Part shown: positions 15,159-59,600 of the stretch, in pieces | Numbering within the stretch: the first letter of the stretch is position 1 | Layout: the number at the start of each line of letters is the position of its first letter | Assembly: GCF_029962835.1 (NCBI RefSeq) | Contig: NC_080579.1 | Span: forward strand, 85,019,959-85,083,958 | DNA length: 64,000 nucleotides | Direction of reading: 5' to 3' | Origin: Magnolia sinica | Taxonomy: Eukaryota > Streptophyta > Magnoliopsida > Magnoliales > Magnoliaceae | The notes under the pieces: generated by a model | The model's database searches: none | What the model was told of the DNA's origin: nothing | What the model saw: only the letters and a program-made list of their open reading frames with translations | Made by a program: the position numbers and the translations under genes

Positions 15159-15164
15159 ACCAGG

Positions 15165-17710: not shown

Positions 17711-18762
17711 GAGAGAAAGAAGGGCGGAAAGAGAGAAAATAGTCGTCACAAGCTCAAAAAGAGCAATTGAAATGGAAGAAAAAGTGGGAATAAGATGGGT
17801 TATGTGCTCACAAGATCGTTGCAGCACACAATGGTATTTGTGTGTTCCAAAAAGAGAAGGAATGAAGAAAGTTGAAGGAATGGGGAAGATTGGAAGAGGG
17901 ATTGTTGGGTTTTTGGAATCTTAAGCTACAAAAAGGGGATGTGTAGGCTCAAATGAAAGGGGATAAAGAGGAAAAATGATGGAATAGAGTAGGTTAGTGA
18001 GTTTACACGAATTTGAGACTCAAATGGAGGGTTTAAGAGCTCAAATGAGATAATGGAAAAGAGTTGGCAGCTGCGGTAGAGGTTTTTGAGGGGGTGGTGC
18101 AAGGGTTGCACGAAAATGAGAAAAGGAGTGTTTAAAGGAGAGGTTTGAGTGAAAAATCTAAGATTTTTTTGAGAAAAGAAGAGCTTGAAGTGGTGGTTTG
18201 TGAAGGATAGGTAGCATAGGAGGGGTTCTAATCGACCCCACATGCGTCCGTGGGCCACACAGCACCCAGGACCCATCAGCCTGAGTCGTCCTGCCCGGCC
18301 AAGCCTATTTGGTGGCCGGGCCTCGCCGGTCTCTGGACTATCCGGTGAGGGTTCGCCCTTTGGGCGAGGTCCTCCTGCCCACTGGGTCCCAAAAAGGTGT
18401 GGGTCCCACCCTGGGTCCCCCTGGAGATATACTATTAGGCCCCCAACTCCGTTTTGACTCGTTTCGGGTCATTTCGAATAGATTCTGATGTATATTCATG
18501 TTTTCCAATTTTAAACGGCTGGGACGAAATAAAGCATGGTCTAAACCCGTCAATTGACGGTCTAAGGGTGATTTGGGATCGACTCATGCGATCACGGATG
18601 GGTACAGACCCAAGCAAGGTGATCGATTTCGATGAACTTTGCCAATTGACGAAATCAAGGAAACCTAAGCTTGTTTCTACATTTCTCTCACACCCAACTA
18701 TGTTGAAAAGCATCAGCGTACATCGTGTGACCCTAAGCCAGGTCCGGTTTAATCCAAATCAT
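17711..18762 (-). other. Leader of element 2 between PBS and accessory ORF
   Basis: Non-coding leader of about 1 kb on the minus strand with pyrimidine- and purine-rich tracts. It has no conserved frame, although the accessory ORF frame stays open to 17827 upstream of its first conserved Met. Confidence 0.5.
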
Positions 18763-18774
18763 GCTCTGATACCA
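18763..18774 (-). promoter_or_regulatory. Primer binding site of element 2
   Basis: The minus strand reads TGGTATCAGAGC three bases inside the 5' LTR. This is the usual plant PBS complementary to the 3' end of initiator methionine tRNA. Confidence 0.88.
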
Positions 18775-21130
18775 ACTTGTAACGCCCTAAAAATCGGGTG
18801 TCAAGTAAAAGTCCAACTCCCGAGGTCCAACGCATCACTTATGCAACATATTTAATGATGATTAAATGTTGTCTGTATTAGTGCATAAAATATAAATTAG
18901 ATAAGCCAAAGTAGCAAAACATAATCCAGGGACAGTTGTAATACGCAAGTGGAAGACTTACTCAAACACGTATAACGTTATAACACAGCATAGTTCCCCA
19001 AAGTATGTATGCATTGTCAGGTCAATAATTACATGTATTGTTTCCAAATATAAAATGTCAAAAATGTGATAGTCCACTATAAGTATAACCCTGAAGCCCC
19101 GTCGATGCGGATGGCCTAAGCGAAACCACCGGAGAATTGCATATATAAGAACTCATCCTGATCGTCATAATAATCGGGCTCCGCCTCCTGAGTCGCATCA
19201 TCATCTACAACTAAGACAGAGTCTGGTTGGTGTTTAATACACCGTCCCAGAACGTGGGAGTGAGTGATCAAATCAATGGGATCATAGAGCAAAGGTTAAC
19301 ATGTTATCAATTCAGTCAAGCAGTAATGATAAAACAGACATATCAGACATTCCTAGATACTCTTATTAATGCAAGCATGAAATGTAAGCATGATGCATGC
19401 CCTCGCCTACACTCCCTCGTGCGACATCATCTTACGGTCGCGACATGCTTTCTTCCCTCTGTGCTCTTTAACCTGGGGCACATGCAGTACGATAGAATGA
19501 GCGTGATTACCGAGTTATTATTAGTCCCTTTCATACAGAAGGATTGAAAATCTAAGGTACCTCCCTTATATCAATTCCCAAACAATGATCCATTCTAAGG
19601 TCGTCAGTCCTAGCAATTCTCATAGGATATTGCAGTTTCTAGGTCACTGTAAAGGGCTCGTCACCTTATCAGTGCAGGCCTAGTGTACTCTTGTTGCTAC
19701 ATAAGGGCTCGTCGCCTCTACGCAGTCTTAGCGTACACTCGAGGTCACTACAAAGGGCTTGTTACCTTATCAGTGTAGGCCGACAGCTCGAATACAGTGT
19801 CTCATACCACCGTATTCTGCTCACGAGTCTGGGTTGCTCACTGGTCACTACGGGGAGGCTCGTCACCCCAGCATAGGCCGATAGCTCAACCACGGTGTCT
19901 CATACCACCATGCCCGGCTCATGAGTCTTAGCAGATCGAGGTACCAAGGTTAACAGGATTTTCACTGGTGAGTTTGGTACCTTAGGTTCAAGCAGTAGTG
20001 TTCATACATGGTGAATATACATCAGGTCAATCGGGTTTCTTGACGAGCTCAACTAGTACGAGCGCACGTTGAGTTAATCGACATGAAGTATGTAAGCACT
20101 CCGTGTGGCCTAACCACTGCCAACATCCCAAGTACGGCTCGGATTCATCGATCACGTCCTATGTGGCGAGACAACCTCAACCACCTATTCAATGCCTGTT
20201 ACTGATTGCCTGGACTATCCTGTAGTCCCAAACAAAATCAACTATAACAGATAATCATACAAGCTTATCAGAATAGTAATGGATCAACAATTCCAATCAT
20301 ACCAGCATGTGAGCATTTGATGGCTTTCAACTTAAACTTGAATTCACACATAGGCAGTGTCTAAGTAATACAGACAAAGAATATAAGTTACATGGAGGAA
20401 ATCATATACATCGTTAAGGTAGTTGAGAATTTCTTCTCAATACCCATATAAAGTACAATTTATTATACACTTGTTCAATCAGATATTTCTACAAACACTT
20501 AGACTACATATTCCAACATACATGATGTATGTTAGTGATGACATGTATTAGGGCAAATCCTTACACCAGGGAGTTGCCCCGTATGCCACATGCATATACC
20601 CACGGCAGATAATCATGGCATGCATAAATCCAAGTTCCATATCCATTTAATCATTTGCACAAACACTTGGGCTACACACTTTAACATATATAACTAATAT
20701 TGGTCGTGGCGTGATTTAGGGCAAGTCCTTTCGCTAAAGAGTTGTCGCATATATAATAGGTGTATATCCATGAAAGATAATCATGTTAGGCACAAATCCA
20801 AATTTCATACGTATTCAGACATCACAACATATATATAGAATACACTATATGCCACATATTTCATATATACTTATAAAACGAAACAGACGACGCATTTTGC
20901 ATGTAAAATAGCACCCACGTGAGTTATAAATTATTAACCGACATTGAAAGCTTTGAAAACCATAACCTATACGTTTATAGTCCGCACCTTTCGCCAGTAG
21001 ACTCGTAACAAACTCAGTTTTAAAGCTAAGTCTTTGTCTACGGCAGATTGCCAACCTATAGCATAAATTAGGTTAGCTATTTCATAACTTACACTATCTA
21101 AAACCCTAAAACAGATTAGGGTTAGGTTTT

Positions 21131-21140
21131 CTTACCTAAG
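21131..21140 (-). promoter_or_regulatory. Splice-donor-like site in 5' LTR of element 2
   Basis: CTTAGGTAAG on the minus strand, about 195 bases downstream of the LTR TATA box. The same sequence occurs at the same place in the right LTR of element 3 (50222-50231). It would suit a leader intron; this is inference. Confidence 0.4.
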
Positions 21141-21330
21141 AACAGGATTGGTATCATCCGAATAGCAACACAGGAGTGGTGGCTAAGCATGTGGAGCGTC
21201 GGGGAAAGATCCCAACATCTATCTCTCACTCTCTCTCTCTTTCTTCCTCACTTTCTTCTTCTCTTTTCTCTCTTCTTTCCCTTAGGTTTTGCAAAATTCG
21301 TATGGCATATGAGAGGGAGTGTTTAAGGTC

Positions 21331-21338
21331 CTTATATA
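21331..21338 (-). promoter_or_regulatory. LTR TATA box (element 2, 5' LTR)
   Basis: TATATAAG on the minus strand in the context GGCCTATATAAGGACC. It is placed to drive the element's transcript leftward. Confidence 0.65.
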
Positions 21339-22119
21339 GGCCCAGGTTTGATGGAAATGGCCCCATGGCCAAGGTATACTTAGATTATATCCAAATACGA
21401 ACTATTCCGGTCCAACGGAACACTTCTGATGGCCCCTTTTCTACGTGCGGTCAGACTTAAGCTCCCTGACCATGGATCTAGGTCAGGCTAAGTTTTCATT
21501 CCGATCGAATTTACAGATTAGCCGTGGAGGACCGGTTTCAGTTCAACGGTCACGGTCACTTGATCAGGGCCACAAGTACATTGACATGTGTGGGACATTT
21601 CTCCTGATTCGAGGGTGTATTTGGGTCAGATTCTGATGGCCTGAATCCTTATATTTGGCCCGCAAGCGACACGACTCAGATTACTTAAATTCAAATTTTT
21701 ATTTCTAAGTATTTTCACGTTTCTCACACACTTTGTTCCGGGCTCAAGTTGTGCATTTCTAGACAGAATCAAGACTTGATTTCTGAGAGGGTTGTCAAGT
21801 CTAGTAATGCAGTCATATCCATATAGTTTCAGGATAATCGGACTTTCGACGTGTGGTCAAGGTCCTATACGGAGTTTCGGTGTGCTCCCAAGAGCAACCG
21901 GGTTTAAGGATGGATTCTAGATTTCAGGGTAATGTAGCGTCAATGATTCTGCATGTTTTGGGTCTTGCAGATCATATTTAAAGTGATTAGTGCTAATTTC
22001 ACAAGCACTCTAGTTTAGCACTTGCTAATATTAACCTAATTTTCTAAGGGTTTTCGTCCTGGGTAATAACTGTCAGAGGGGGTACTCGGTCTTTGTACAG
22101 ATTTTTCCGAGACGTTACA

Positions 22120-38652: not shown

Positions 38653-39138
38653 AACATGTATATCTCGTAGCCCAACTGTCATTATCTCAAGAGGATCAGT
38701 TCGAGATAAAAGATGCCCTATCCTAGTTTAAAGGATTGGGTAATGAGTTTGACTATGGATTTAACAACTCAAGCATTGGTTGCACTTGCATTTCCTCCTC
38801 TGGTGTAGAAAGTTCATTAACTCCAGAAGTGTTACGAGTAATTCTTCGGCTCATTTTTTAAATTATTGCACTGGTATGTATACTCAAAATGTCGAATCTC
38901 ATTGGGTTTATCAAAAATTGTTGGCACTTGGTTTATTTTTGGTCACATGTAGTACATGCAGGCTTGCCAGAACCGATTTTACACCTCGATTCAAACTGAA
39001 CAATTTTGACTACAAATGCCAAGATAGGTAGATACGTTAACTACGATTGTATATCTAGGACTTGAGAAGATCGATCGCTTATTCAATCACTCACAAAATT
39101 GGTATAAGATGATTAGACAAAAGTCAGAGGGTGGAGTT
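38653..39138. other. Intergenic DNA, nothing recognised
   Basis: Non-repetitive-looking flank between the LTR remnant and element 3. I see no gene. Confidence 0.5.
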
Positions 39139-39143
39139 CTTCT
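39139..39143. repeat. Target site duplication of element 3 (left)
   Basis: TCTTC, repeated exactly at 52422-52426. Confidence 0.9.
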
Positions 39144-39922
39144 GTAACGTCTCAAAAAAATTCACACAAAGACCCGAGTATCACCTTAGGTAAAAATCAC
39201 AAAGGACCAAATCCTTTAAAAATTAGACAAGAATTAACTAAGTGCTAAACTAGGTTACCTATGAAATTAGTACTAATCACTTTAAATATGAACTGCAAGA
39301 CCCAAAATGTGTAGAATCATTGACGCTACATTACCCTGAAACTTAGAATCAATCTCAAAACTCGGTTACTCTCGGGAGCACATCGAAACTCCGTATCAGA
39401 CCTGTACCGCACATCGAAAGTCTAAATACTATGAAACCATATGATTATAACTGCCTTGCTAGACTTGACTATCATCTCAGAAATCAAGTCCAGATAGTAT
39501 CCTGAAATGCACAATTTGAGCTCGGAGCGAAGTGTGTGAGAAACGCAAATATCTTTAAGAAATGAACTAAAACTTAAGTGAATTGAGTCATTCACTTGCA
39601 AGCCAAATCTAAGGATTCAGACCGTCGGAATCTGACCCAATTACACCCTCAGATCAGAAAAAATTTTCAACACATGTCAGTGTACTTGTGGCCTTGATTG
39701 AGTACCGGTGACCATCGAACTGAAACTGGCCCGCTGTGCTCGATCTGTAAATCCGATCGGACCAAAAACTTAACCTAGCCTAGATCCAATGTTAGGGAGC
39801 TTAAGTCTGACCACACGCAGAAAATGAGCCTCCAAATGTGCTACGTTGGACCGAAACGGCCAGTCTTTAGCTATAACCTAAGTAAACCATGACCCTAGGG
39901 CCATTCCCATCAGTTCTAGGCC

Positions 39923-39930
39923 TATATAAG
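39923..39930 (+). promoter_or_regulatory. LTR TATA box (element 3, 5' LTR)
   Basis: TATATAAG in GGCCTATATAAGGGCC, followed by a purine tract of GAGAGAGAAAAAAGAG type at about 39975-40017. The same order is seen in the right LTR. Confidence 0.65.
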
Positions 39931-40109
39931 GGCCTAAACCTACCCATCTCTCATTCCATACGAATTTCTAACCTAGGAGAGAGAGAAAAAAGAGAAGGAA
40001 AGAGAGAGAAAGTGGGAGACCGTCCCTGGGATCCTTCCTTATCCCTCCACGGGCTGAATCAACCCTTCTGCATCGCTATTCCAGCGATTCTGACTCCGTT
40101 CTTAGGTAA

Positions 40110-40753
40110 CCCTTGTTGTTTAGAATCTCACAACTTTGATTAGAAAACTGTACACTATGGTTATTATCACAAATTTGAGATATGCTTAGAAGATTATGTT
40201 TCAGTCCTTCAACATACAAAACATTTTTAAACAAAGGAAGGTTATAGAGTTGAACCGTACCGTGGCTAATTATCTTGTAATTGCTTCCATCACCAAAAGT
40301 AACTGACCCATCAGTCATATCTTTAAGATCAGTGAATAAAGCCTTATCACCTGTCATATGTCTGGAGAATCCACTATCTAGGTACCACTTTGAATGGCTT
40401 GTAGGTTTGAAAGCGGTGTGGGCAACCAAGTAGGCAACCTTAGGAACCCATTTCAGAACTGTTTTGGGTTTGGGAATATAGTTGGTCTTCTTTTGTCTGA
40501 TGTTATAAGGATGACCTACTGAGTTAGATTTTAAGAGCTCCTTGAGTAAATCAATTATCTTTTCAGCTAGTGGGTTTCTGTTCTGAATTTTAAAGTTAAC
40601 ATAGCTGCTTTTAGGATTTTGAAAAGCTTTTGTATTTTTAGAAAAACCTTGACTAGTATTTTTACCTTTTGAGGACTCTCCTTTCACAAACTTAGGAGGA
40701 GTATACTTTTGTTTAGGAGGAACATTTTTATCATAACTCAACCCAGATCTGTC
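40110..40753 (-). mobile_element. Ty1/copia gag-protease fragment inserted in LTR
   Basis: This 644-bp segment is absent from the other LTR, so its ends are exact. On the minus strand the frame 40741-40076, nearly all of it within the insert, encodes a Ty1/copia piece. It has a Lys/Ser-rich linker from the gag end, then the copia protease region with KWYLDSGFSRHMTGD, VTFGDGSNYKI and LKHNLLSISQICD. The usual Cys after the protease DSG is Phe. It has no LTRs and I see no target duplication. It replaces the G of a GTAAG splice-donor-like site. It may be filler DNA from break repair or a truncated cDNA. Confidence 0.88.
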
Positions 40754-41814
40754 GAAACCTAACCTTAATCTGTTTTAGGGTTTCAAATAGTGTAGGTGGT
40801 GAAATAGCTAACCTATTTCATGCTATAGGTGGTTGTCATGCCGTAGACGAAGACTTAACATACAAACTGAGTTCGATACTTGTTTATCGACGAAAGGTGC
40901 AAACTATAAATATTTAGGTTATGGTTTTCAAGGCTTTTAATGTCAGCAATGATTTATGTCTGACTTGATTGCTATCACAGATGCTAGATACAATATTTTT
41001 CGTAAACTACACATATATGTAAACTATGTTGGTTTTAAATGCATTCCATCTATTTGTTGAAATGCATGAATGAATGTGGAATTATGATTCGTGTTTGATA
41101 CGATTGTCATTAGAGAATACATGATTATTGTTGATATGGCAACTCCTATGTAGAAGGAATTACTATGATATGCATTTTAAACTAATTAAGTGCATGTGTG
41201 TAATATGTGTAGTCTAAGTGTTTGATAAAATGCCTGAATGAGAAAATGCTTGTTTAAATGTATGTATGAAGGGTGTTGAGATAGGATTCTCAATCCCCTT
41301 AACTATGGATATAGAACCCTTTCTATAACCTATCTTACTATTATGTGCTTTATAAATGAAATGTTTGTGTATGATAATATGTGAAGTATGTGTGTGATTT
41401 AATTGCTCAAGTAAGATTTGTATCTGATTTTGGTTGGCACATGCAGTTTTGGACTGGTACATATGAATGCCTAATGTATATGAAATGTGTTTGGGGCTAA
41501 GACGTAGTCCAGGTGATTGGTAATGATTTCTGAGTTAGTGGCCGAGGTTGTTTCGCCACACCAGACACGTTTGAGGAATCTGAGTCATACGCTGCTAGTC
41601 AACAGTGGTTAGGCCACATGGAGTGCTTATGCGCTCCATGTCGATCGGCTCAATATATGCTTATACCAGTCGACCTTGTCAAGTAACCCGATTGGTCTGA
41701 TGAATGTTCACTATGTATGGACGCTATTACTTGAATCTAAGGTACCAAACTCACCTGTGGAAAATTCGTTTAACCTTAGTACCTCGATCTACTAAGACTT
41801 ATGAGCTAGGCATG

Positions 41815-42100
41815 GTGGTATGAGACACTGTGGTCGTGTTGTCGACCTATGCTGGGGTGACGAGTCTCCCCATAGTGACCAGTGAACAACCCAAACTCGT
41901 GAGCTGAATACGGTGGTATGGGAGACTATATTCGAGCTGTCGGCGTATGATCAGGTGACGAGCCCATAGTGACCTCGAGTGTACGCTAGAAACTATGTTG
42001 AGGTTACGAGCCTTTCCATAGTAAACTAGAGTATAAACCAGGCCTCTGCTGAGGTGACGAGCCTCTCCGTGGTAACCTGGAAACTGCCTATCGTATGTGA
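41815..42100. repeat. CTCGTCACC-type modules, inverted orientation (element 3 left LTR)
   Basis: GGTGACGAGC and TAGTGACC motifs recur four times at similar spacing, the reverse complement of the modules in element 2 LTRs, consistent with the opposite strand of this element. Confidence 0.7.
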
Positions 42101-42945
42101 CTGCTAGGATTGACGGCCCTAGATGGATCAATGTTGGGTATATGACATATAGGGAGGTGCCTTAGCTTCCCAATCCTGCTGTATTAAAAGGTCTGATAAG
42201 AACTCGGTAATCATGCTCATACACCGCATTGCATGTGCCTTTGGTGTTAGTGTTAAGCACAGAAGAAGGGGTGCATGCCGTGACCGTAAGAGGAAGATCA
42301 CAGAGGGAGTGCAGGTGAGGGCATGCATCATTAATACATATCATTTTTGCATTAACCAGAGTACTTAGGGATGTTTGATTATATTACTTTATCATTACTG
42401 CTTGATTGAATTGATAATATGTTAACCTTTGCCTTATAGCCCTACTGAGTTGATCACTCACTCCCACGTTCTGGGACGGTGTTTTAAACACCAAGCAGAC
42501 TCTATCTTAGCTGCAGATGATGGCGATGCTTATGAGGCAAAGCGAGACTATTACGATGACAAAGAGTTCTCCTATATGCAACTCTCTAGCGGGTCTATGT
42601 AGACCTGGAGTTGCGCTGACAGGGCTACAAGGTTTTGGATAGAGAACATTACACTTTTTGATTTTTGTATATTTTTGAATTAAACTTGTAATTGTTTAAC
42701 CTAGTGACAGTCATACTCTGAGGGCTTACTATTATTTTTGTACAGTTTATATACATATCACAGTCTTCCGCTAGCATACTTTAATTGCCTCTGAAGTATG
42801 ATATGTTGTTTTGGTATAATCTCATTCATGTTTAAGTCACTAATACGGACAACATTTAATCATCATTATCTATGTTGCATAAGCGATGTGTTGGAACTCG
42901 GGAGTGAGTCTATGCTCGACCCCCGATTTTCATGGTGTTACAAGT

Positions 42946-42957
42946 TGGTATCAGAGC
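42946..42957 (+). promoter_or_regulatory. Primer binding site of element 3
   Basis: TGGTATCAGAGC three bases after the 5' LTR, matching initiator Met tRNA. Confidence 0.9.
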
Positions 42958-43810
42958 ATGATTTGGATTAAACTGGACCTGGGTTATGGTTTCACAATGC
43001 ACACTGACATACTTTGATTTAGGAGGAAGCGTTGAAATGTAGAAACTAGCACAAGATTCCCAGTTTCGCTAATTGGTGAAACCGATCGAGATTGACCGTT
43101 GAATTCGGGCCCATAGGCCTCTGTGACCATGTGAGAGGGCCCCCATTTGTTTCTAGACTGTCAATCGACGGGTTTAGACCCTAATTCAACCTATTCCACA
43201 CTCAAACAAACCAAAAGGTGTGAGCGTACGCAAAATGGGACCCGAAACGACTCAAACGGAGTCGGGGGCCTACACGGTGCAATACGGGGGGACCCAAAGT
43301 GGACCCTGCATATTTTTGGCACCCCAGGGGGGATGGCATCGCCTAAGGGGCGAGCCATCGCCGGAGAGTCCAGGGACCGACGATGGCATCGCCAGATAGG
43401 CGAGGCCTCGCCAGTCGGGCGGACCGGGCCTACACGGGCCGACGCCAGTGGGACGCTGTGGGGCCCACGAAATCACATGGGACCCCCTCTATTTCTTCCA
43501 TTTTCTCCCCACTCCTCTCTTATATACGCCCAAACTCTCCCTTTTCTCTAAAAACCCTTTTTCCCCTCTCAAATATCCCTTCCATTCTCAAAAACTTCTC
43601 TTCTTCCTTCTTTTCATACACCCCTCTACCGTTTTCATCAAGACCCACCTCCTATCTCTCTCTTTTCCTTTCATTTGAAGGCACAAACCCTTCTTTATGT
43701 CCCAAAAACCTCAAGTCTAATGATCCTTTTTATCTCCCCTTTCCATTTCACTCTCATGGCTCTTTTTGAGTTTGTGGCGGCGATTTTCTTAATTTCCACA
43801 CTTCTTTCTC

Positions 43811-45087
43811 ATGGGGAAGAAGAGGACTTCCACGAATGAAGCTAGGCCTAGCCGCCCTACTCGTTCAAGGAGACCGAAAAGCATCGCCGCGGGTACAAGC
43901 ATCGATCGAGAGATAAGGACAAAGCGGGACCTCGATCCTAAGGCTCCCCTCGAGAGAGTTCTACTGGCGGATCTGTCCCATGGAAGATTTCAGGGCCGTA
44001 GGGTCCTTTTTGAAGCACAAGTGGACGAGAAGCTCTTTGGAAAATATCTGGTGATGGACCACCTAGTGGATGCTGGGTGGGGTCCTATATTTGAGGGCAA
44101 GTTCAATGCGAATGCGAGCACTGTCCGAGCCTTCTACGCTCATACACGGGAGCCAACGCTGGAGCTCTTGCAATTCAAAATTCTCGTGAGAAGGCGGGAG
44201 GCCACAGTTGATGTTGGCTTAATAGCCCGACTCATGGGGATGTCGCTTGGCGAAGTCCATGCTAGTGAGAAAAGTCTTAGGAGTGCACGTGAAAGGGATC
44301 GCCGCACACGATTCCTTTGTGGCCAACTGGCCCATTGGAATCCAAACAATAGTCTCCCGGCATCCAATATGACCGACGACTTTCGCATGCTCCACCACAT
44401 CTTCACGTACAACGTGTACCCCAGGTGGAGCAATTGCAGTGAGTGCAGGCACCTGATGGTAGACTTTCTATACTGAGCTGGGCAGGGAGAGAAGTTGTGC
44501 CTGCCTACGTATGTACTGCTACAGATAATGCAAACTGAGCGCTCTTCTAGGACATCTGTTTCGCTCTCCTTCACCGACTTATATGCAAGCTTACAGGTGA
44601 ATTCGCCTACAAACTTGGTGCAGAACTTCCTGTGCCAATCCATTTCATCAATGACACCACTCTCAATAACATGGATATTGGGCCATGACAGCATCAAGCC
44701 CGACTTGATGAGAGTGAGGATGAGACGGAAAGCGAAGAAGAGGAGAGTGATGAAGAGGGCAGAGATGAGATAAGGGAGGAAGGAGAGCAGGGAGAAGAAG
44801 AGTAGGCCTAGGACACTGATGAGGGTTCTCCTCCTGCTATGCATGAGCATGACAGTGATCGGACTACATCAGAAGCCCGCTGGGCTCAAATCGAGGAGGG
44901 CCAAGTCGCCCTGCAACAAGAGATCGGGTAGGTCCGGGCCGAACTTGGAGAGACCCGAGCCAAGCTTGAAGAGAACGAGGCCTTAATGAAGTAAAAATTC
45001 AAGAAGGTATCTCGCACCTTAAAGGCTATCCTGTGCTGCATGCAGGATAAGGGTGCACCTCCTCCATCACCTGATTCAGACGACTAG
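43811..45087 (+). pseudogene. Accessory ORF of element 3, upstream of gag, sense strand
   Basis: This is the homologue of the accessory ORF of element 2 (17710-16487), in the same place and direction. The open part 43811-44476 gives 221 residues: MGKKR, a basic stretch (RPTRSRRPK), then PIFEGKFNAN, VRAFYAHTREPTLE, HASEKSLRSARERDRRTR, LLHHIFTYNVYPRW-like sequence and DFLY, then TGA. Beyond it homology continues (GQGEKLCLPTYVLLQI) with later frameshifts. An acidic Glu-rich block follows at about 44700-44810, then a charged helical part (RAELGETRAKLEENEALMK) and a tail with KFKKVSRTLKAILCC ending at TAG 45085-45087. It resembles putative plant transposon protein domains; no biochemical role is known to me. 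Gag starts about 300 bases later. Confidence 0.76.
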
Positions 45088-45389
45088 TTGTGCATATAGT
45101 CGCCCTATTTGTTTGCTTTATTGCTTGTTTGCTTGTTTTTATATGTAGCCTTGATAGGCTTAATGGTGTGGTAGACTGGTTAGTATGTTTCAGTGTTGAA
45201 GCCTTGCTTAGGTTAGCTCACATGCATCTTCTGTCATGATTCATGTAATACTACATCTCATGTACCGTGATAATTTTTTTAAATAAAATACATAAAGTTT
45301 CTTTGAGTTATGATGCAAATGCTGTGTTGTTGAGTTTGTGAGCATGTGCTGAATCTGACATGGGTTGCACCCTATGTTGTATTTAGGGA

Positions 45390-46510
45390 ATGCAACCTAA
45401 GAGCACGCGGACCTCGGCCCGTCTCACCCTTGGTGACTCGATTGACGGGGCTCCTCCCCTAAACGATAGCCACATGGACCCCAGTTCGGGCCCACCTCAC
45501 GAGACTATGCCGAACTCTCAGCCGGCCACTGGCCCCACTAATGGGCCTACACCTGTTGCACTACCGGTTCCTGAGCAGAACCGTGCGTCCTCTTCGATGC
45601 AACATATGCCTCAGACCGCCCCTCCCCCAGATAGGTTAGAGTAGATGATGTTATTGATGCAACAGTAGTAGCAGCAGCTCTTGGCCACCCTTGGGGGAAT
45701 CTTTGCTTAGAGCATAGGTGTGTCTCCACCTGCTCCATTTGTGCCCCCTGCTAGGAATACGAGTGCTAGCGGCCATTTCGAGCGATTCTAGTGCTTGCGA
45801 CCTCCTACTTTTGCGGGTACTCACCGACCCAAGGAGGCCGAGTATTAGCTTGACCGCATCTCTAAGATGCTGAAGTCGTTGCACTGCACTGAGGCAGAGC
45901 AGGTGGAGTTGGTCACCTTCATGTTTGAGGAGGCCAGCTTATGGTGGGACAGTGTTCTCTACACTGTTACTGTCGGACACGTGTCGACGTGAGAGGCCTT
46001 CGAGACGCTCTTTCACGAGAAATATTTCCCCCTCACATACTGTCATGAGAAGGAGAGACAGTTCCTTCACCTCCGACAAGGAGGCATGACAGTGGCAGAG
46101 TACGAGAATAGATTCACGGAGCTGGCTAGGTATGCTCCTTTGATTCTCCCCCATCAGCCGATGAGGATGCGGTGCTTCTCTGAGGGCCTGCGACTCGAGA
46201 TACGCTCGAAGATGTGCTGCGTTAGCATATCTACCTATGCTGAGCTGGTGGGCATGTTTCTGCGAGCGAAGCAGGATGGGAATAGATTGTCCTGCATGTG
46301 CATGCCTATGGTTCCTAGACCGTGATCAGATTTGTCGAGCAGGCCGTTCCTGGAAAGAGGTCCCGTATAGACTCGCCTCCTAGACTTGCAACTCCACCAG
46401 TCCCTATGAGGCGACCAGACATGTGGTGCACCTACTGTAGGAGGTCTGGCCACATTGATGCCCATTGTTTCACCAAGATGAGGGACAACGGCTTCTCGCC
46501 GCCTTAGAGG
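45390..46510 (+). pseudogene. Element 3 gag with zinc knuckle
   Basis: Gag starts at ATG 45390 (MQPKSTRTSARLTL). The same frame runs to about 46325, broken by several in-frame stops at former Gln, Trp or Arg codons. It contains the Gag core with FEEASLWWDSVL, TVAEYENRFTELARYAP and LRLEIRSKMCC. After a frameshift near 46320 comes the zinc knuckle CTYCRRSGHIDAHC (CCHC spacing intact), followed by KMRDNGFSPP and a stop. Gag makes the particle shell and binds genomic RNA. Confidence 0.85.
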
Positions 46511-46654
46511 ATCAACCGCTAGCTTCCTCTGACGATTGCAACTCCACCTCTACGGTCAGCACCAACACATCCATCTTTTCGGCCCCCTGCACCCCGATTT
46601 AGGCCGCCTCAATGGCCTATGGTACCACAACTGAACCGATCTCAGTAGGCTCGC

Positions 46655-47965
46655 GTGCACTCACTTGCAACTGAGGCATCCGAGACAGCAGTTGCAACAC
46701 TGTTGGCTTTTGAAGTCACGACGCATGTTCAAGGTACACCAGTCTTCTTATCAGTGGACACCGGGTCCACTATCTCTATAATATCGTGTGCAGTAGTCAA
46801 GCAACTGGGGTTGAAAACTAGTCCTATGGGTGGGGTGAGAATCCTTACCGCCACAGGGACTTTCTCGGACGCTACCAGGATGTGTAAGGGTTGTTCAATA
46901 GACTTAGAGAGTAGAATAGTGCGCATTGACCTGATTGTCTCTCCGTTGCACCATTATGATGTCATTCTTGGTATGGATTGGCTCACGGAAGTGAAGGCAG
47001 AGATCGAATGCTATACTAGAGTGGTGACAGCCCATAGACCAGAGGGCACGACCTTTATATTCCTAGTGCAGGTCAGTTGGCCCTATCGCATTAGTTGTTA
47101 CGCTTCATTACTAGAGGACATTAATGGTCCAGCACTTGAGGACACCCCTGTAGTCCAAGAATTCTCAGACGTATTCATAAAGATACCTGGATTACCCTCT
47201 CAGTGCGAGATTGATTTTACCATCGATCTAGTGCCTAGTACAACACCTATATCTCTTCCGACTTATCGCATGCCTCCATGTGAGATGGAGGAGCTGAGGA
47301 AACAGATCGATGATCTGTTGGATGCAAGCTTCATACGACCTAGCGTGTCTCCGTGGGGAGCACCTGTGTTGTTTGTGAAGAAGAAGGATGGATCTCTGCA
47401 ATTGTGTATTGATTACCGCAGATGGAACCAAGTGATGGTGAAGAACAAGTATCCTCTGCCCAGGATAGATGATCTGTTCGATCAGTTGAGAGGGGCACAG
47501 TATTTTTTGAAGATCAATTTGCAGTTAGGGTATCATCAGTTGCGCGTCAAAGATGAGGACGTGCAGAAGACAGCATTTAGGACCAGCTTTGGGCATTACG
47601 AGTTCCTAGTGATGTCGTTTGGACTCACGAATGCACCGGCCGTGTTCATGAACCTGATGAACAGGGTGTTTCGGCTGTATCTATATCGATTAGTCATCGT
47701 ATTTATAGATGACATCCTCATATACTCCAAGAGTCGGAAGGAGCACGAGGAGCACCTGCGAGCAGTCTTCGATACGCTCAAAAAGAACCAGTTGTTTGCA
47801 CAGTACAAGAAGTGCGACTTCTGGAAAGAAGAAGTTAAATTCCTAGAACATGTGGTGTCCAAGGAAGGAATAGCTGTGGACCTTGCTAAGGTAGTCGCAG
47901 TTCAGGACTGGGAGCAGCCTGGTTCGGTTACTAAAGTAAGAAATTTTCTTGGCCTGGCAGGTTAG
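46655..47965 (+). pseudogene. Element 3 protease and reverse transcriptase
   Basis: This 436-codon open stretch is the longest pol frame in the window. Residues about 30-45 hold the protease active site ([13 protein letters not shown]), and about 100-115 the [10 protein letters not shown] motif. RT follows with [64 protein letters not shown] and the catalytic [12 protein letters not shown]. Motif A, which should read KIDL, reads [11 protein letters not shown]: its essential Asp is Asn. The enzyme would therefore be inactive despite the open frame. A stop at 47966, within the NFLGLAGY motif, ends it before RNase H. Confidence 0.9.
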
Positions 47966-48660
47966 TATTGTCGATTCATTAGAGATTTCTCCAAGATAAC
48001 CAGACCATTGTCTCAGCTAACTCAGAAGGATCTCAAGTTTACATGGAATGAGAAGACAGAAGCAGCTTTTCAAAAATTAAAGGACAAGTTGACGTCCACC
48101 CCTGTGTTAGTATTGTCAGAACAAGGGGTCAAGTATACAATATACACCGACGCTTCTCGTGTTGGTTCGGGTGGTATTTTGATGCAGAAGACAGGGTTAT
48201 TGCCTATCTATCACGACAGTTGAGGAAACACGAGGAAAACTACCATACGCACGACTTAGAGTTAGCGGTCGTCATCTTTGCTTTGAAGATCTGGAGACAT
48301 TACCTCTACGGAGAGGAGTTCGAGCTCTTTTGCGACCATAAGAGCCTCAGATGCATATTCACGCAGAGGACTTGAATATGAGACAGCGGCGGTGGATCGA
48401 AACCTTGAAGGACTTCAAGCTCGAGGTCTCCTACTATCTTGGCAAGGCTAACCTTATGGGAGACGCGTTGAGCCGCAAGAAGACGATAATATTTGCGGCT
48501 TCACTGATGATAGCGGAATGGGATATGGTAGAGTTTGTGCAAGACTTTGAGCAGAAACTTACGATAGAAGAGCCGTTCGAGAGCATCGCACATATTCGGG
48601 TTCAGCCACTTATTGATGACAGGATCATCGTGGCTCAGATAGATGAGGAGCTATTGGCGA
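47966..48660 (+). pseudogene. Element 3 RNase H
   Basis: RNase H lies in at least two frames. The segment 48008-48223 has [19 protein letters not shown] and [15 protein letters not shown] shifted frame (about 48224-48350) has [20 protein letters not shown] and CDHKSL, with the acidic residues present. The segment 48351-48671 has the tether (NMRQRRWIETLKDFKLEVSY, ALSRKK) and stops just after the deletion junction. Confidence 0.85.
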
Positions 48661-48662
48661 GA
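48652..48662 (+). other. Deletion junction: integrase core lost
   Basis: TTGGCGAGAAGAG joins a sequence equivalent to 12920 in element 2 (ELLAK) directly to one equivalent to 12094 (GEKRLIDPELV). Both parental places contain GTTGGCGA in element 2, so about 0.83 kb was lost between short direct repeats. The missing part includes the zinc finger and the whole DDE core. Confidence 0.83.
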
Positions 48663-48904
48663 AGAGTCTGATTGGCCCAGAGTTAGTTTAGGCGACCTTA
48701 GAAAAGATCGACATTATCAGACGTCAACTTCTAGAAGCACAGAGCAGATAGAAGAGCTACGCCGATACGAGGCGGCGACAGCTAGAATTCGAGGTTGGGG
48801 ACCATGTATTCCTGAAGGTTTCCCCGATGAAAGGATTCCTCCGGTTTGGAAAGAAGGGGAAGCTCACACCGAGATTTATTGGCCCATTCTAGATACTGGA
48901 CCGA

Positions 48905-49270
48905 GTGGGTGTGGTGGCATACCGCCTTACTTTGCCCACACTACTCGTAGGCGTGCACAACATATTTCATGTATCTATGTTAAAGAAGTATGTTCCTGAT
49001 CCTTACCACATTATCAGATGGGAGAAGGTACAGTTGAGCGAAGACGCTACTTATGTACTGCGACCGACGCGTATTCTGAATAGGAAGGAGCAGGTGTTAC
49101 ACAGTAAGGTGATTCCACTTGTGAAGGTTTTGTGGACACACCACACTGAAGAGGAGGCTACTTGGGAAACAAAAGCTGAAATTTGTAAGAACTACCCTCA
49201 AATTCTCGACGAGTATGAAAAGGTACTAATTTTTATAATGAAATTCTTCTTTAAGGGGGGTAGATTGTAA
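48905..49270 (+). pseudogene. Element 3 integrase C-terminus, chromodomain-like tail
   Basis: The last pol frame has VVAYRLTLP, HNIFHVSMLKKYVPDPYHII, RPTRILNRKEQVLHSK, VKVLWTHHTEEEATWETK and YPQILDEYEKVL. It is homologous to 11502-11849 in element 2. Because of two extra bases relative to element 2, the frame reads on through the polypurine tract (KGGRL) and ends at TAA 49268-49270, inside the first bases of the 3' LTR. The GPY/F part lies just upstream in another frame. Confidence 0.85.
49253..49265 (+). promoter_or_regulatory. Polypurine tract of element 3
   Basis: AAGGGGGGTAGAT directly precedes the TGTAAT start of the 3' LTR and matches element 2. Confidence 0.85.
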
Positions 49271-50039
49271 TGTCTCGGAAAAATCTGCACAAAGACCCGA
49301 GTATCACCTCAGGTAGAAATCACAAAGGACCAAATTCTTTAAAAATTAGACGAGAATTAACTAAGTGCTAAACTAGGTTACCTGTGAAATTAGCACTAAT
49401 CACTTTAAATACGAACTACAAAACCCAAAACGTGTAGAATCGTTGACGCTACTTTACTCTGAAACTTAGAATCAATCTCAAAACTCGGTCGGGAGCACAC
49501 CGAAACTCTGTATCGGACCTGTACCGCACGTCAACAGTCCGAATACTATGAAACCATACGGTTATGACCACCTTGTTAGGCTTAACTACCATCTCAGAAA
49601 TCAAGTCCAGATAGTATCTCGAAATGCACAACTTGAGCCCGGAGCGAAGTGTGTGAGAAACGCAAATATCTTTAGGAAATGAACTAAAACTTAAGTGAAT
49701 TGAGTCGTTCACTTACAGGCCAAATCTAAGGATTCAGACCGTCGAAATCTGAGCTAATTACACCCTCGGATCAGGAAAAATTTTCAACACATGTCAGTGT
49801 ACTTGTGGCCCTGATCGTGTACTAGTGACCGTCGAACTGAAACTGGTCCTCCGCGGTTGATCTGTAAATCCGATCGGACCGAAAACTTAGCCTGGCCTAG
49901 ATCCAATGTCAAAGAGCTTAAGTCCGACTACACGCAGAAAAGGAGCCTCCAGATGTGCTCCGTTGGACCGAAACGGCCAGTCTTTGACTATAACCTAAGT
50001 ATACCATGGCCCTGGGGCCATTCCCATCGGCTTTAGGCC

Positions 50040-50047
50040 TATATAAG
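50040..50047 (+). promoter_or_regulatory. LTR TATA box (element 3, 3' LTR copy)
   Basis: TATATAAG in GGCCTATATAAGGGCC. A promoter here would read toward 52421 and the SDS side, but I see no sign that it drives SDS. Confidence 0.55.
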
Positions 50048-50221
50048 GGCCTAAACTCACCCCTCTCTCATTCTATCCGAATTCTTAACCCTAGGAGAGA
50101 AGAGAGAGAAAAGAGAAGGAAAGAGAGAGAAAGTGGAAGACCGTCCCTGGGATCCTTCCCTATCGCTCCACGGGCTGAATCAACCCTTCTGCATCGCTAT
50201 TCTAGTGATTCTGACTCCGTT

Positions 50222-50231
50222 CTTAGGTAAG
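50222..50231 (+). promoter_or_regulatory. Splice-donor-like site in LTR of element 3
   Basis: CTTAGGTAAG, about 185 bases after the LTR TATA box. In the left LTR the copia fragment begins within this motif. Confidence 0.4.
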
Positions 50232-52421
50232 AAAACCTAACCCTAATCTATTTTAGGATTTCAAATAGCGTAAGTGATGAAATAGCTAACCTATTTCATG
50301 CTATAGGTGGCTGTCATGTTGTAGACGAAGACTTGACATACAAACTGAGTTCGATACCTGTTTGTTGACGAAAGGTGCGGACTATAAACTTTTAGGTTAT
50401 GGTTTTCAAGGCTTTCAATGTCAGCAATGATTTATATCTGACTTGATTGCTATCATGTATGTTAGATACGATATTTTCCGTAAACTACACATATATGTAA
50501 ACTATGTTGGTTTTAAATGCATTTCATGTGTTTGTTAAAATGTCTGAATGCATGTGGAATTATGATTTGTGTTTGATACGATTGTCGTTAGAGAATACAT
50601 GATTGTTGTTGATATGGCAACTCCTATGTAGAAGGAATTGCTATGATATGCGTTTTAAACTAATTAAGTGCATGTGTGTAATATGTGTAGTCTAAGTGTT
50701 TAATAAAATGCCTGAATGAGAAAATGTTTGTTTAAATGCATGTATGGAGGGTGTTGAGATAGGATTCTCAATCCCCTTAATTATGGATATAGACCCCTCT
50801 CTATAACCTATCTTACTATTAGGTGCTGTGTGAATGAAATGTCTGTGTATGATAATATGTGTAGCATGTGTGTGATTAAATTGCTCAAGTAAGATTTGTA
50901 TCTGATTTTGGTTGGCACATGCGGTTTTGGACTGGTAAATATGAATGCCTAATGTACATGAAATGTGTTGGGGCTCCGACGTAGTCCAGGCAATCGGTAA
51001 TGATTTCCAAGTTAGTGACCGAGGTTGTTTCGCCACACTAGACACGTTCGAGGAATCCGAGTCGTATGCTGTTAGTCGATAGTGGTTAGGCCATGCGGAG
51101 TGCTTATGCACTCCATGTCGATCGGCTCGACGTATACTCGTACCAGTCGAGCTTGTCAAGTAACCCAATTGGCCCGATGAATGTTCACCATGTATGGACG
51201 TTACTGCTTGAATCTAAGGTACCAAACTCACCTGTGGAAAACCCGTTTAACCTTGGTACCTCGATCCGCTAAGAGTCATGAGTCGGGCATGGTGGTATGG
51301 GATACCATGGTCATTCTGTCGACCTACACTGGGGTGACGAGCCTCCCCGTAGTGACCAGTGAGCAACCCAAACTCGTGAGCCGAATACGGTGGTATGGGA
51401 CACTGTATTCGAGCTGTCGGCTTATGATCAGGTGACGAGCCCGTAGTGACCTCGAGTGTACGCTAGAAACTACATTGAGTGATGAGCATTTCCATAGTAA
51501 ACTAGAGTATAAACCAGACCTACGCTAAGGTGACAAGCCTCTCCGTGGTAGCTTGGAAACTGCCTATTGTATGTGACTGCTAGGATTGACGACCCTAGAT
51601 GGATTAATGTTGGTTATATGACATAAAGGGAGGTGTCTTAGCTTCTCAATCCTGTTGTATGAAAAGGTCTAATAAGAACTCGGTAATCATGCTCATGCAC
51701 CGCATTGCATGTGCCTTTGGCGTTAGTGTTGAGCACAGAGAAATAGGTGCATGCCGCGACCGTAAGAGGAATATCGCAGAGAGAGTACAGGTGAGGGCAT
51801 GCATCATTAATACATATCATTTTTGCATTAACCAGAGTACTTAGGGATGTTTGATTGTATTGTTTTATCATTACTGCTTGATTGAATTAATAACATGTTA
51901 ACCTTTGCCTTATAGTTCCACTGAGTTGATCACTCACTCACACGTTCTAAGACAGTGTTTTAAACACCAACCAGACTCTGTCTTAGCTGCAGGTGATGAC
52001 AATGCTTATGAGGCAAAGCTGGACTATTATGATGACAAGGAGGAGTGCTCCTATATGCAACTCTCTGGCGGGTCTATGTAGACCTGGAGTTGTGCTGACT
52101 GGGCTACAGGGTTTTAGATAGAGAATATTACACTTTCTGATTTTTGTATATTTTTGAATTAAACTTGTAATTGTTTAACCTAGTGACAGTCATAATCTGA
52201 GGGCTTACTATTATTTTTGTACAGTTTATATACATATCACAATCTTCCGCTAATGTACTTTAATTGCCTCTGGAGTATAATATGCTGTTTTGGTATAATC
52301 TTATTCATGTTTAAGACACTAATACGGACAACATTTAATCATCATTATCTATGTTGCTTAAGTGATGCGTTGGAACTTAAGAGTGAATCTATGCTCAACT
52401 CCCGATTTTCAAGGCGTTACA

Positions 52422-52426
52422 TCTTC
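52422..52426. repeat. Target site duplication of element 3 (right)
   Basis: TCTTC, identical to 39139-39143. Confidence 0.9.
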
Positions 52427-55376: not shown

Positions 55377-55450
55377 GAGCTGACGTGGCATTCGTGGAGC
55401 ACTGCCGGCTATAAAAGGACGTTCCGACGTGCCCAAGCCAGTTACGTCAG
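55377..55450 (+). promoter_or_regulatory. SDS core promoter with TATA box and ACGT motifs
   Basis: TATAAAA lies at 55410-55416, so transcription should start near 55440. Three ACGT-core motifs flank it: TGACGTGGC (55381), CCGACGTGCC (about 55425) and TTACGTCAG (55442). ACGT cores are bound by plant bZIP factors. Their use in this gene is inference. Confidence 0.6.
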
Positions 55451-55465
55451 TTGAAGCTCGAAGCA

Positions 55466-55585
55466 GAGCTCCGAAAGGAAAACAGAGCGAAATTGCGTTT
55501 TACATCTGCAACTGTCAAAATCCCCGAGCTCCGAAAGGAAAACAGATCGAAATCGCGTTTAACTTCTGCAATTCGATCCTATACA
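55466..55585. repeat. 60-bp tandem duplication in the SDS 5' leader
   Basis: GAGCTCCGAAAGGAAAACAG starts at 55466 and again at 55526, exactly 60 bases later. The two units differ at a few positions. The second unit ends at the base before the SDS start codon. The length is a multiple of three and both units are open in the SDS frame, but neither supplies an ATG. Confidence 0.9.
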
Positions 55586-56662
55586 ATGCCTAGAAACGTC
55601 AATTCCGTCCTCCACGCCAGCAATCCACGCAAGAAACGACAAATGCAGCCCGTTTCTCACTCGAAGAAGCTCCGTTCCAAGATCCCTCGCCGGAAACGCA
55701 TCCCTCACTTCCCAATTCTCAGCAGATCTTCGAACGAGCTGTTTTCATCAAAAGAGTCAGAATTATCGGCGTTTCCAGCACCTTCCTGCTCTTCCTCCTG
55801 CTTTACGGGCGATGTCTCCTGCGATTCGAGCATGATCTCTGTCGGTTCTGTGAACCCGAAGAAACGGCAGAGATCGAAGGAAAGCGACGCAATCGAACGC
55901 TCCGGAGTCGCATTTTTCGGCAAGGATTCGCGGCCGATAACCAGATCTTACTACCGGCTGAAAGAAAATGTCAGGTCTGAAGAAAACAAAGGATCTCCAA
56001 CCGTAGGATCGTTTTCTCCACCGAAGGGTAGAGACGTCATTAGATCGGCTGAGGTTTCTGAGAGAAATTTGAAGCAGACGATCGGATCTGTCAAAAGAGC
56101 TCCAAAATCAGAGAAGAGCGAAGAAATCTCTTGCATTGAACCGTTTTTACCGGAGAATCCCAATCTGAAAGCTGGATCCTGTAAAGGAGACGAAAATTCG
56201 TTGCAATCTCTTGCAATTGCAGCATCTGCAGCCTCCGGAGCTGAGTTCTCCGAAATTTCCTGCATAGAATCGCTTTCGGCTGCGAACACTCGAAATGCAG
56301 CGAAAACTGAGCCAAGTGTCGTTGTTTCAGAACAGACTGTGGATCTCACTTGCTCAGAGCAGCTATCGGACGGAGACGACAGCTCGGATTATTCGAGCTG
56401 TCAGGAAATGACGCTTTCGCAGCTGGAAGCAGAGATTTTCCCTAAAAATTCGGACGGTGAGTGTGTCGAGTTTTCTCAGCCGTCGCTTTCGTCGATCCTA
56501 GGAGAGTCGTCGGTTGATTCCGAAACATCCGGCTGTAATTCCACTCCGTCGGTCTGTTTTTCGCTGTTTTTACAATACACGAAGCAGTTGTCGAGGTCGA
56601 GATCGCGTCTGAAATTTGGAACGTCTGATGGAATCGAAGACGAATACTCTGACAAATTTACG
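55586..56662 (+). CDS. SDS: SDS exon 1
   Basis: This exon gives 359 codons from ATG 55586 to ACG before GTCAGA (phase 0). It encodes the Ser-rich regulatory N-terminus with NLS-like clusters near residues 15-38 and a [10 protein letters not shown] motif near residue 115. An in-frame upstream stretch to 55451 lacks ATG. Confidence 0.9.
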
Positions 56663-59600
56663 GTCAGATATTCAATTTGCATAAGATGTCTTCTTTAAAG
56701 TTGTTTTGTATTTATATTGTCTAAATTGATGTTGTAATTTTTAGCTTTTGAGGTTCGAAAATGAAGAGCATGAAGAGAGCTACAAAAAGCTCAGGATCAG
56801 GGAGAGGAGACATGAGTATCGGCACAACTATATCGAGGTATACGGCCTGACGACGGAGTATGGAGATGTCGTGCTCCAGCAGCGGCTGCTGATGGTAAAC
56901 TGGATAATCGAGGTGAGGGACTCTCAAATCACATTTTCTTAACAATCGCGCTTCTTTAAAGCTTTCTTGTTTCAAATAATCGGCGATTTTTTGCGGGAGT
57001 AGTTGAGCACATACTACGCAGTGTTCTACCATTTGAGATCGTTCCGCGTTTTGCTGTCTGCTGGAACCCGGACCGGGATTGTTTACAAGCTTGTCTTACA
57101 AAGCACCAAATATGTGTGGGGCACAATGCACTTTATATGTCAATCCACTCGGTCCATAATGCGAGAACCATTATTTTAACCGTTCCTGCAAAGAATCATC
57201 TCCATATAAATCTCAAATAGGTCATGCCAATGGAAACCATGTAAAAGCTTCTCCTAAAACCTTCAAGTTCACACGCTGCCGCCTTGCGGCCCGATAGGCT
57301 GATTTTGGTATTTTCCCTTTGTCCTGGTGATTTACACCTGATAACGGGTACGATGAAAGATACACACCATGCTGGCCCCACACAAACTTATGGTTGGGAT
57401 AGCATCCGATTGCTCCTTGTGGTCTGGCCATTTGAGCCGTTGATCTCGATTATTTTTTACCTGTATCTTAGGATCGATGATTGAACCTGATGTACTGATT
57501 GGATTCTATATATATACAATATGGTGGACCCACAAGCTTGGGCGTTTTACGCGCTGAGTAAAACACAACGCGGAAAACAGGCGTTGTGAAGGATCCCCGT
57601 CCCTGAACGGATGCATGTGCATCCTCGTATCGTATCGTATCTGGCTGTTTCTTTACTCTGTTTCTATGATACGCTGGACTAGGTAAGATTGTAGACCACA
57701 GGACGTCGAACCCGAAGCCTAGGTCTTCCATTGTGCATGGACCATGTGATCTTAACCGCTCATCTGGTGGACCATAATGTGGATATCCTGCGGTGAAAAT
57801 TCATTTTTCTGCGGTCCAAGCATTTCAATTTAAGCATGCCACCGGCCCTTTCAATCTTAAACACCCAATCTAAGTCCAACTTGTGGCCACCAGTATCTAG
57901 ATCCTGCGAATTCTGCACTCTGGACGGTCCATTGGAAATCACACCAGAGGAGAGGCTCCAAATCGGGTGGGCACTCTTGCGAGTCACGGGAGTTTGATTT
58001 CCTCCAGTTCTTTCGTTTGGGTTTTGACAGAGTACGGTGCTCCCGGCCGTGGTGTACCGTACGTGGGTTCTCAACTACGATTTCATCTTAAATGATGATC
58101 TTAACCGTTCATATTCTCTTTACTGCTTTATAGAAGATACGATCAAATATTGATTATACTAAGCTTTACATATTGGATTTGGATATGGTCCATTCAAGCT
58201 TTACTTTCAATGTTTTAAAACCATCTTCACACACAATCATCCTTTCATCGAATCCTCCTTAGAATGGATCTTCTAGCATAGAATCTAAAATATGAACGGT
58301 TCAGATCATCATCTAAGATGCAAACTGGGGGACCCACCCCCGCAGGTAGCTGTGGAATGGGGGCACCTTAACCTATCAAAACCGTCGTCAAGGAACCTTG
58401 TTCGGTTTCGAGTTGTTTCAGATTCGGAGCATTCCCACGAACTATAATTAGTTTCCAGGACACTCGGACCCACTAAGTTAGTTGCGATACGTGCTGAACT
58501 GAACCCAGGCGGGGCCCGCCATGTCCATCTACGTTAGAATGCTTTTTTCCCACGTGCAAAACCATGTTCCTATGGCGATTTCTCTTCCCATTCTTTTTCC
58601 CTACCGGATGTCTCCCTCTCTTTTGACATGGATTCTTCTTTGGAGCAGCACGCGGACGAGCACGAGCTGCACTACGAGACATTGTTCTTGAGCGTGAGCC
58701 TGTTCGACAGATTTCTAGGCAAAGGGTTCTTCAAAAGCAAAAGAAAACTTCAACTTCTCGGAATCGCTTGCTGCACCCTCGCTACGAGGATCGAAGAAAA
58801 CCAGCCACTTAACTGGTATCTATCTACTCTCTCCTTTATTATCGTCACCGACTCCATCCGATTTTTTTCGCCCTATCTCGACTTTTTGAATTTTCTTAAG
58901 TGGCACCGTCTATCTTTCGCAAAGCTCTCCGACACAAATACCTCGCGAATGAAGTAACATTCACGAACTCGCGATCGTGTGCTCGGAGTGTAGGACAGAC
59001 GAACCACCTAACTAGCTTAGACTGGCAGTCTTGTAATTTCGGGGCAATTAAAGGGCAGTTTCAGGATCAGTCTTTTTATTACAGCTGATAGCTGGGAATA
59101 CCCTCATTGGGGTAACAATTTACAGATTTGACAACTCCTGGTTATGAATCGGGAATTCCCACGTGTCAAAGTTGCACATGTGCGAGATCCAAGCCGCTCA
59201 CATGACGGGCCTCATTCTGGTGATAGATGCTTTGGCTAAAATAAATCAGGAAATTCTGAATATCAGGTGAGCCCTAACTGGACAAGCAAACCGATAGTCA
59301 AGTGAAATTTAATGGTGTTCCAGAGTCACGATACTACTAGGGCTACCTGATGACCAATCAGCCTGATTTTCAAGACAAGCATCTACCGAGAGCGGTTTTG
59401 ATCTTGAGTGAGAGACCAGCGCCAACTCGTCCCAGTTCATTTTAGCATTTCTCATGTGTGGCAAGTCATGGACATAATATAATGGAAGTACTTTTCTTCT
59501 TCTTCTTCTTCTTCTTCTTCTTCTTTTCAGTATCCGACGGAAAGAATTCCTAGTGGGAACCAACGTGTTCAGCAGATGTGAAGTGGTGGCCATGGAATGG

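Follow-up and report, generated by a model that had tools for sequence, protein, structure and literature searches.

The window analyzed here is a 64,000-nt stretch of the Magnolia sinica genome (contig NC_080579.1, positions 85,019,959 to 85,083,958), and the subject of this study is a reading frame, here called the accessory ORF, that lies between the 5' LTR and gag of a chromovirus-type Ty3/gypsy LTR retrotransposon (element 3). A relative of this retrotransposon (element 2) is nested in element 1, on the opposite strand to element 3. The LTRs of elements 2 and 3 were located by blastn and the ends of both elements were set by eye; the primer binding site was read from the sequence. The features to which we refer are as follows.

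741-29697, minus strand: element 1, chromovirus-type, with 4.9-kb LTRs that are 90% identical and the duplication GTGGC
8147-22119, minus strand: element 2, nested in element 1
8147-11490 and 18780-22119, minus strand: LTRs of element 2
16487-17710, minus strand: accessory ORF of element 2, 407 codons and a stop, with three in-frame stops inside
39143-52421, plus strand: element 3, chromovirus-type Ty3/gypsy LTR retrotransposon
39143-42942, plus strand: 5' LTR of element 3, with an insert at about 40109-40755
42946-42957, plus strand: primer binding site of element 3, TGGTATCAGAGC
43811-45087, plus strand: accessory ORF remnant of element 3, from start codon to natural stop, broken
43811-44473, plus strand: open part of this accessory ORF, 221 codons
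44072-44452, plus strand: part of element 3 matched by PF20167 (profile 3-123 of 177)
45390-46322, plus strand: gag region of element 3, interrupted, with its ATG at 45390 and PF03732 within 45993-46322
46649-47962, plus strand: protease and reverse transcriptase of element 3 (PF08284, PF00078)
48893-49267, plus strand: integrase end of element 3, SH3_Tf2-1 (GPY/F type) and chromodomain (PF24626, PF00385)
49266-52421, plus strand: 3' LTR of element 3

The 5-bp target duplication is perfect for element 3 (TCTTC, at 39138-39142 and 52422-52426); for element 2 it reads GAATA/AAATA, in which four of the five bases agree (both read by eye). Because the LTRs have diverged by K 0.072 in element 2 and by K 0.098 in element 3 (over the part compared), both are old insertions. 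The motif TGGTATCAGAGC, which we take to be a primer binding site of the initiator-tRNA-Met type, is also present 3' of the 5' LTR of element 2. The insert in the 5' LTR of element 3 is probably a piece of another retroelement, since its minus-strand ORF (40079-40774) matches Pol_BBD (PF22936). At 48654-48660, a stretch of about 0.8 kb that element 2 has in its integrase region is missing from element 3 (blastn). Element 1 matches SH3_Tf2-1 at 88 bits and a chromodomain at 17.7 bits, the latter under the cut-off, and tblastn found no significant trace of the accessory ORF in it. Elsewhere in the window, at 55415-56698, lies a 427-codon ORF for which Pfam gave nothing at E up to 0.1; it could belong to a host gene as one of its exons.

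The accessory frame of element 3 starts at the ATG at 43811 and passes through a basic start, a globular domain, an acidic run, and a charged tail to a TAG at 45085-45087. A TGA ends its open part at 44473, further stops follow downstream, and there is a 1-nt gap relative to element 2 near 44573. The original prediction, which placed a sense frame before gag in this element, is thus borne out for the frame and the order of its parts, but the frame is broken after 221 codons. A homologue with the same order of parts was indeed found in element 2 (17710-16487), with the in-frame stops listed above ahead of its end, and the sequence blocks quoted as conserved, including KFKKV-RTL, are present. 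Of the charged helical tail that was also proposed, the charge was confirmed, whereas the helicity was judged by eye. When aligned, the two copies stay frame-coherent to the common end of the accessory ORF, with 68% identity across the first 222 columns. Counted from the ATG, the open run is 221 codons in element 3 and 222 in element 2 (292 from stop to stop in element 2), and in the 2.4 kb ahead of gag open runs reach at most 227 codons. Such a frame exceeds chance expectation, as 3 of 1000 first-order Markov sequences reach 222 open codons.

Substitutions between elements 2 and 3 follow the reading frame. Mismatches are distributed 72/72/168 over the three codon positions in the frame and 111/109/108 in the leader. 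The frame has a dN of 0.189 and a dS of 0.982 (ratio 0.19, 0.14-0.27), with a ratio of 0.11 in the acidic tail, and the ratios of the two remaining sense frames are 1.37 and 1.16. One antisense frame has a ratio of 0.30 (the others, 1.24 and 1.30), as expected for a frame that shares its third positions with the sense frame. Outside the frame, the ratios are 0.67-0.71 in the leader and 0.59-0.83 in the LTRs, and the mismatches are even across positions.

We searched the 1.84-Gb assembly (127 contigs) with the accessory domain of element 3. The best 150 of 21371 first-look candidates match from query residue 1-3 to 218-220, with E values of 4.0e-103 or lower. Our compared set has 69 rows, namely, the best 68 of the 150 scored loci (L001 is element 3) and element 2. 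On absence of the frame from most family members, which would speak against an accessory gene, this search bears in part: the 150 best places are near-complete, but the frame itself served to find these loci. Of the 69 rows, 58 retain the ATG. The natural frame is 410 codons long, with a stop at codon 411 in 57 rows (from the eight commonest states, which cover 67 rows), and it is completely open in two rows, L013 and L063. In-frame stops occur at 72 codons and occupy 303 of 27179 cells over the 69 rows. In a separate observation, the accessory ORFs of L013 and L038 differ by 4.6%, their aligned leaders by 51%, and their gag sequences by 16%, a pattern that points to leader exchange or recombination between subfamilies.

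One of the stops is common to elements 2 and 3. It occupies the same codon in both copies, and selection appears to persist behind it (ratio 0.29, 0.13-0.58; 69 codons), as would be expected of a programmed readthrough signal separating two products. Across the family, though, this position is a sense codon in 60 of the 69 copies and a stop in 9, and similar sites of recurrent decay are numerous. The 60 sense codons refute readthrough for the family, and we give this reading practically no weight. For the same reason, the stop is not the natural C terminus, and the PF20167 match runs across it in both open copies, L013 and L063; two short pieces from behind it had no Pfam match. We most simply regard the common stop as a coincidence of decay.

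Selection on the frame was assessed from the slope of dN on dS over all 2346 pairs (NG86), which are not independent, so the slopes are descriptive. Codons 1-410 together have a slope of 0.13; the intercept, 0.07, we take to reflect neutral decay of inserted copies. Part by part, the slopes are 0.11 (codons 1-80), 0.05 (81-222), 0.19 (223-300), and 0.24 (301-410, 2248 pairs). The shifted frames have slopes of 0.95 and 0.86, and the leader has slopes of 0.46-0.54. A piece of gag (51 sequences, 1174 pairs) gives a slope of 0.05 with an intercept of 0.12; when the same 50 copies are compared, the accessory core has a slope of 0.04 and the whole frame 0.11. Constraint on the core thus seems to be about equal to that on gag. 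Family-wide, the ratio near 1 that would contradict a coding function is not what we find. Among the closest pairs (dS below 0.15), which bear on young copies, the ratio is higher and the answer less clear-cut: the median is 0.49 for the whole frame (24 pairs), the core (45 pairs) gives 0.54, and codons 1-80 (101 pairs) give 0.77. We read this rise, too, as neutral decay after insertion. Among indels of up to 60 nt, 172 of 258 in the frame are multiples of three, versus 207 of 1465 in the leader; these counts were made against L013, so that common indels count often, and are descriptive.

Taken at the level of substitutions and indels, we conclude that the accessory ORF is a frame that was under purifying selection while the family was active. 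The scarcity of fully open copies (2 of 69) could instead suggest a passenger, a captured sequence without function that is conserved by shared ancestry alone. Such a passenger is hard to reconcile with constraint that is specific to the frame, with indels mostly in multiples of three, and with a slope like that of gag. Moreover, 244 of the 303 stop cells fall on 29 of 397 positions at which a single C-to-T change on one or the other strand turns the most frequent sense codon into a stop, a clustering that fits the decay of methylated dead copies. The passenger reading is refuted as far as sequence can do so, and we consider it very improbable.

How the frame would be translated is a separate matter. 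Twelve ATGs precede it in the leader of element 3 (42943-43810) and 11 in that of element 2, so translation would need leader splicing, shunting, or another device. In both element 2 and element 3, a matrix score places an acceptor-like site immediately ahead of the gag ATG. A splicing route to gag is without support, as TAG is found at this site in 51 of the 69 rows and L013 is without it. There was also no conserved splice pair, in that no leader GT is kept in 90% of the 69 rows. A short block directly before the gag ATG (45360-45395) is kept in many copies.

The globular part had been guessed to resemble domains labeled putative plant transposon protein, and this proved right. L013 matches PF20167 (Transposase_32; gathering cut-off, 45 bits) with residues 88-267 (profile 3-175 of 177) at 61.9 bits, and L063 matches at 46.6 bits, both over the cut-off; element 3 (E 1.9e-9, 38.1 bits) and element 2 (E 0.0062, 16.9 bits) are under it. 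All 15 of the open members examined match PF20167 at E up to 1. When the genome was searched with PF20167, the best 150 of 13875 candidates were all over the cut-off, and no match was found in 14 control genomes. At least one of these best 150 places (the L032 locus, by eye) is also in the list obtained with the element 3 query. The places ranked 1 and 3 (L079 and L080) are outside that list and are followed by the same type of gag, at 68% and 75% identity to that of element 3; we infer that the arrangement extends beyond the element 3 subfamily, and several subfamilies seem to carry the ORF.

In L013, the predicted protein has a basic start (residues 1-40, net charge +7), an acidic linker (301-340, net -22), and a charged C-terminal segment (341-400, net +4) with a helical look by eye. 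AlphaFold2 gave a pLDDT of 35 on the two window sequences. Sequence searches of the PDB found no significant relative, only weak rows (0.044, 0.19, and 0.73) that we take as chance, and scans of viral contigs confirmed no relative of the accessory protein. There was no Pfam match to Athila ORF-1 (PF03078) or Transposase_28 in the accessory proteins, and none to PMD (PF10536) in three proteins at E up to 10 or in 15 members at E up to 1, with the proviso that the filters of HMMER drop most very weak matches. Thus, by these tests, resemblances to PMD, Athila ORF1, and Transposase_28 are analogies and not homology; a beta-hairpin motif of the accessory protein may resemble PMD. A protein search with element 2 alone gave no match, and searches with two-row alignments found one protein, Magnolia sinica LOC131228818 (P0005), whose gene model links 76 residues that are 82% identical to element 3 with a PF03732 gag. 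This 177-residue model was probably built on another decayed copy and so is not evidence for a host gene.

The Pfam name of the domain raises the question of whether it is a DNA-transposon transposase domain that is still enzymatically active, and a Tc3 helix-turn-helix is matched, below threshold, by one member of the 15 (E 0.095). The name, however, is an annotation and not a tested activity, and no other transposase family is among the Pfam matches. We therefore think it highly unlikely that the protein is an active transposase.

The accessory ORF is closely tied to gag. In 51 of the 60 loci that are long enough, gag lies downstream in sense, and in the other 9 it was not found behind the frame. 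The distance from the accessory ATG to gag has a median of 2170 nt and is 2132-2242 nt in 50 of the 51 loci (839 nt in L039). Accessory ORF and gag distances between copies correlate (r 0.57; none of 2000 permutations was as high). At least 11 of the best 150 gag places, with element 3 among them, follow an accessory-ORF or PF20167 place on the same strand at 1.8-2.2 kb (by eye), each list being the best 150 of thousands of candidates. This co-inheritance at a near-constant distance, together with the near-identical slopes of core and gag in the same copies, would fit a cytoplasmic cofactor of the particle or RNP that works with Gag (e.g., in RNA packaging or assembly), with Gag and RNA bound through its acidic and basic parts. 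On the other hand, Pfam searches gave no match to an RNA-binding or capsid-like family, and a linker this strongly acidic sets the protein apart from nucleocapsid proteins. Such a cofactor is conceivable but, in our view, rather unlikely.

The protease and reverse transcriptase matches of element 3 are over the cut-off, and at its integrase end the element has the GPY/F-type SH3 domain (PF24626, 41.7 bits; cut-off, 30) and the chromodomain (PF00385, 26.7 bits; cut-off, 25.1) by which chromoviruses of the Ty3/gypsy group are recognized. An SH3-chromodomain piece lies downstream in four of five copies checked (77-87% identity), and the chromodomain scores 29.7 bits in L074 and 24.1 bits in L075, just under 25.1. 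Element 2 retains RNase H and an integrase zinc-binding domain, with rve at 26.7 bits (under its cut-off of 32.6), and L069 has H2C2 at 72.3 bits and rve at 29.3, again under the cut-off. In L013 and L063, the accessory ORF is a 5' extra ORF as defined in PMC6317226 (250 or more codons, in sense, upstream of the polyprotein). The family probably belongs to the Tekay clade; LTRs above 3 kb, the Met-type primer binding site, and 5-bp duplications do not decide Tekay membership.

Sense ORFs at the 5' end of Tekay chromoviruses were reportedly described in the older survey of Steinbauerova in 2011. Tekay chromoviruses with 5' extra ORFs include sunflower Tekay group 2, maize Tekay, sorghum Sb7, and rice Retrosat-2 (PMC11728184), so ORFs before gag, which the original prediction called less familiar in an element with a chromodomain-like tail, are not new in chromoviruses. 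Like the Magnolia frame, these ORFs are in sense between the 5' LTR and gag of a chromodomain element, and the sunflower ORF is also similar in encoding about 400 residues with a basic C-terminal segment; it is kept in nearly all members (500 of 523) (PMC11728184). The proteins of the grass elements have a mixed helix-strand part, and sunflower Tekay 13-2 is described as without a known domain and without amino acid similarity to the grass proteins (PMC11728184). The Magnolia protein differs from Tekay 13-2 in its clear PF20167 domain and its acidic linker, a comparison made by description only.

The PF20167 domain itself has been reported in a sunflower Athila 3' ORF(+) (PMC11728184), which is likewise in sense and encoded by a retrotransposon, but this ORF belongs to a non-chromovirus element and follows pol. 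The shared domain would allow for a movement or envelope-like protein, as proposed for Athila extra ORFs. Because the Magnolia ORF sits before gag and not after pol, and no strongly hydrophobic segment is evident in its translations (by eye), we consider such a role improbable. There is also a parallel with the PMD ORFs of Ogre and the host proteins MAIN and MAIL1 (PMC5418596 and PMC6317226), in that a plant domain is common to gypsy elements and host genes. The two systems may be alike in a possible nuclear role, but PMD is a different Pfam family, without a match in the Magnolia proteins. In a survey of plant LTR retrotransposons, extra ORFs are heterogeneous and function itself is questioned; the most prominent domains are PMD, Transposase_28, and Athila ORF-1, in Ogre, Retand, and Athila (PMC6317226). 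PMC9289625, PMC11963269, and PMC7264820 did not alter this picture. Sense ORFs before gag in Tekay and PF20167 in an Athila 3' ORF are already known (PMC11728184). In the open-licence literature searched, PF20167 is named in one paper, for that Athila 3' ORF, and none of the papers examined describes it before gag in a chromovirus.

Based on its sequence features, we conclude that the accessory ORF in the window is a decayed copy of the element's own gene, predicted to encode a protein of 410 residues from the sense strand between the 5' LTR and gag. We put the probability that this is a functional accessory protein of the element at roughly 80%. That it acts in the nucleus is a more tentative proposal, with odds somewhat below even, and its mechanism is drawn from analogy. 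The basic ends would take the protein to the nucleus, the C-terminal segment would serve for multimerisation or for binding to a partner, and a host chromatin or RNA factor might be bound by the PF20167 domain; transcription or integration of the protein's own element could thereby be favored against host silencing. The idea of nuclear action comes from the nuclear location predicted for Tekay 5' ORF proteins, of which the sunflower one is also predicted to have a helical, basic C terminus (PMC11728184), and from the silencing roles of the host PMD proteins MAIL1 and MAIN, which carry a transposon-related domain (PMC5418596). Grass Tekay 5' ORF proteins have a weak fold similarity to a double-stranded-RNA-binding protein (TM-score, 0.35-0.37), from which the authors suggest modulation of silencing (PMC11728184). 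Since constraint on the core equals that on gag, we think that the protein may serve mainly the copy that makes it, through cis-preference or by entering the particle with Gag.

More speculatively, and in our estimation doubtful, PF20167 accessory proteins could form a family that is a core gene across chromoviruses (before gag) and non-chromoviruses (Athila, after pol) of flowering plants, magnoliids included, under capsid-grade selection and acting as a dedicated antagonist or modulator of nuclear silencing, with the grass Tekay 5' ORFs as diverged members. Because the protein of the Magnolia elements has a named domain, gag-like constraint on its core, two natural full-length copies, and dozens of compared relatives in the same genome, its function can be tested directly. 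The placement of a domain known from an Athila 3' ORF before gag in a chromodomain element raises the question of whether an accessory module is shared between the two main branches of plant gypsy elements.
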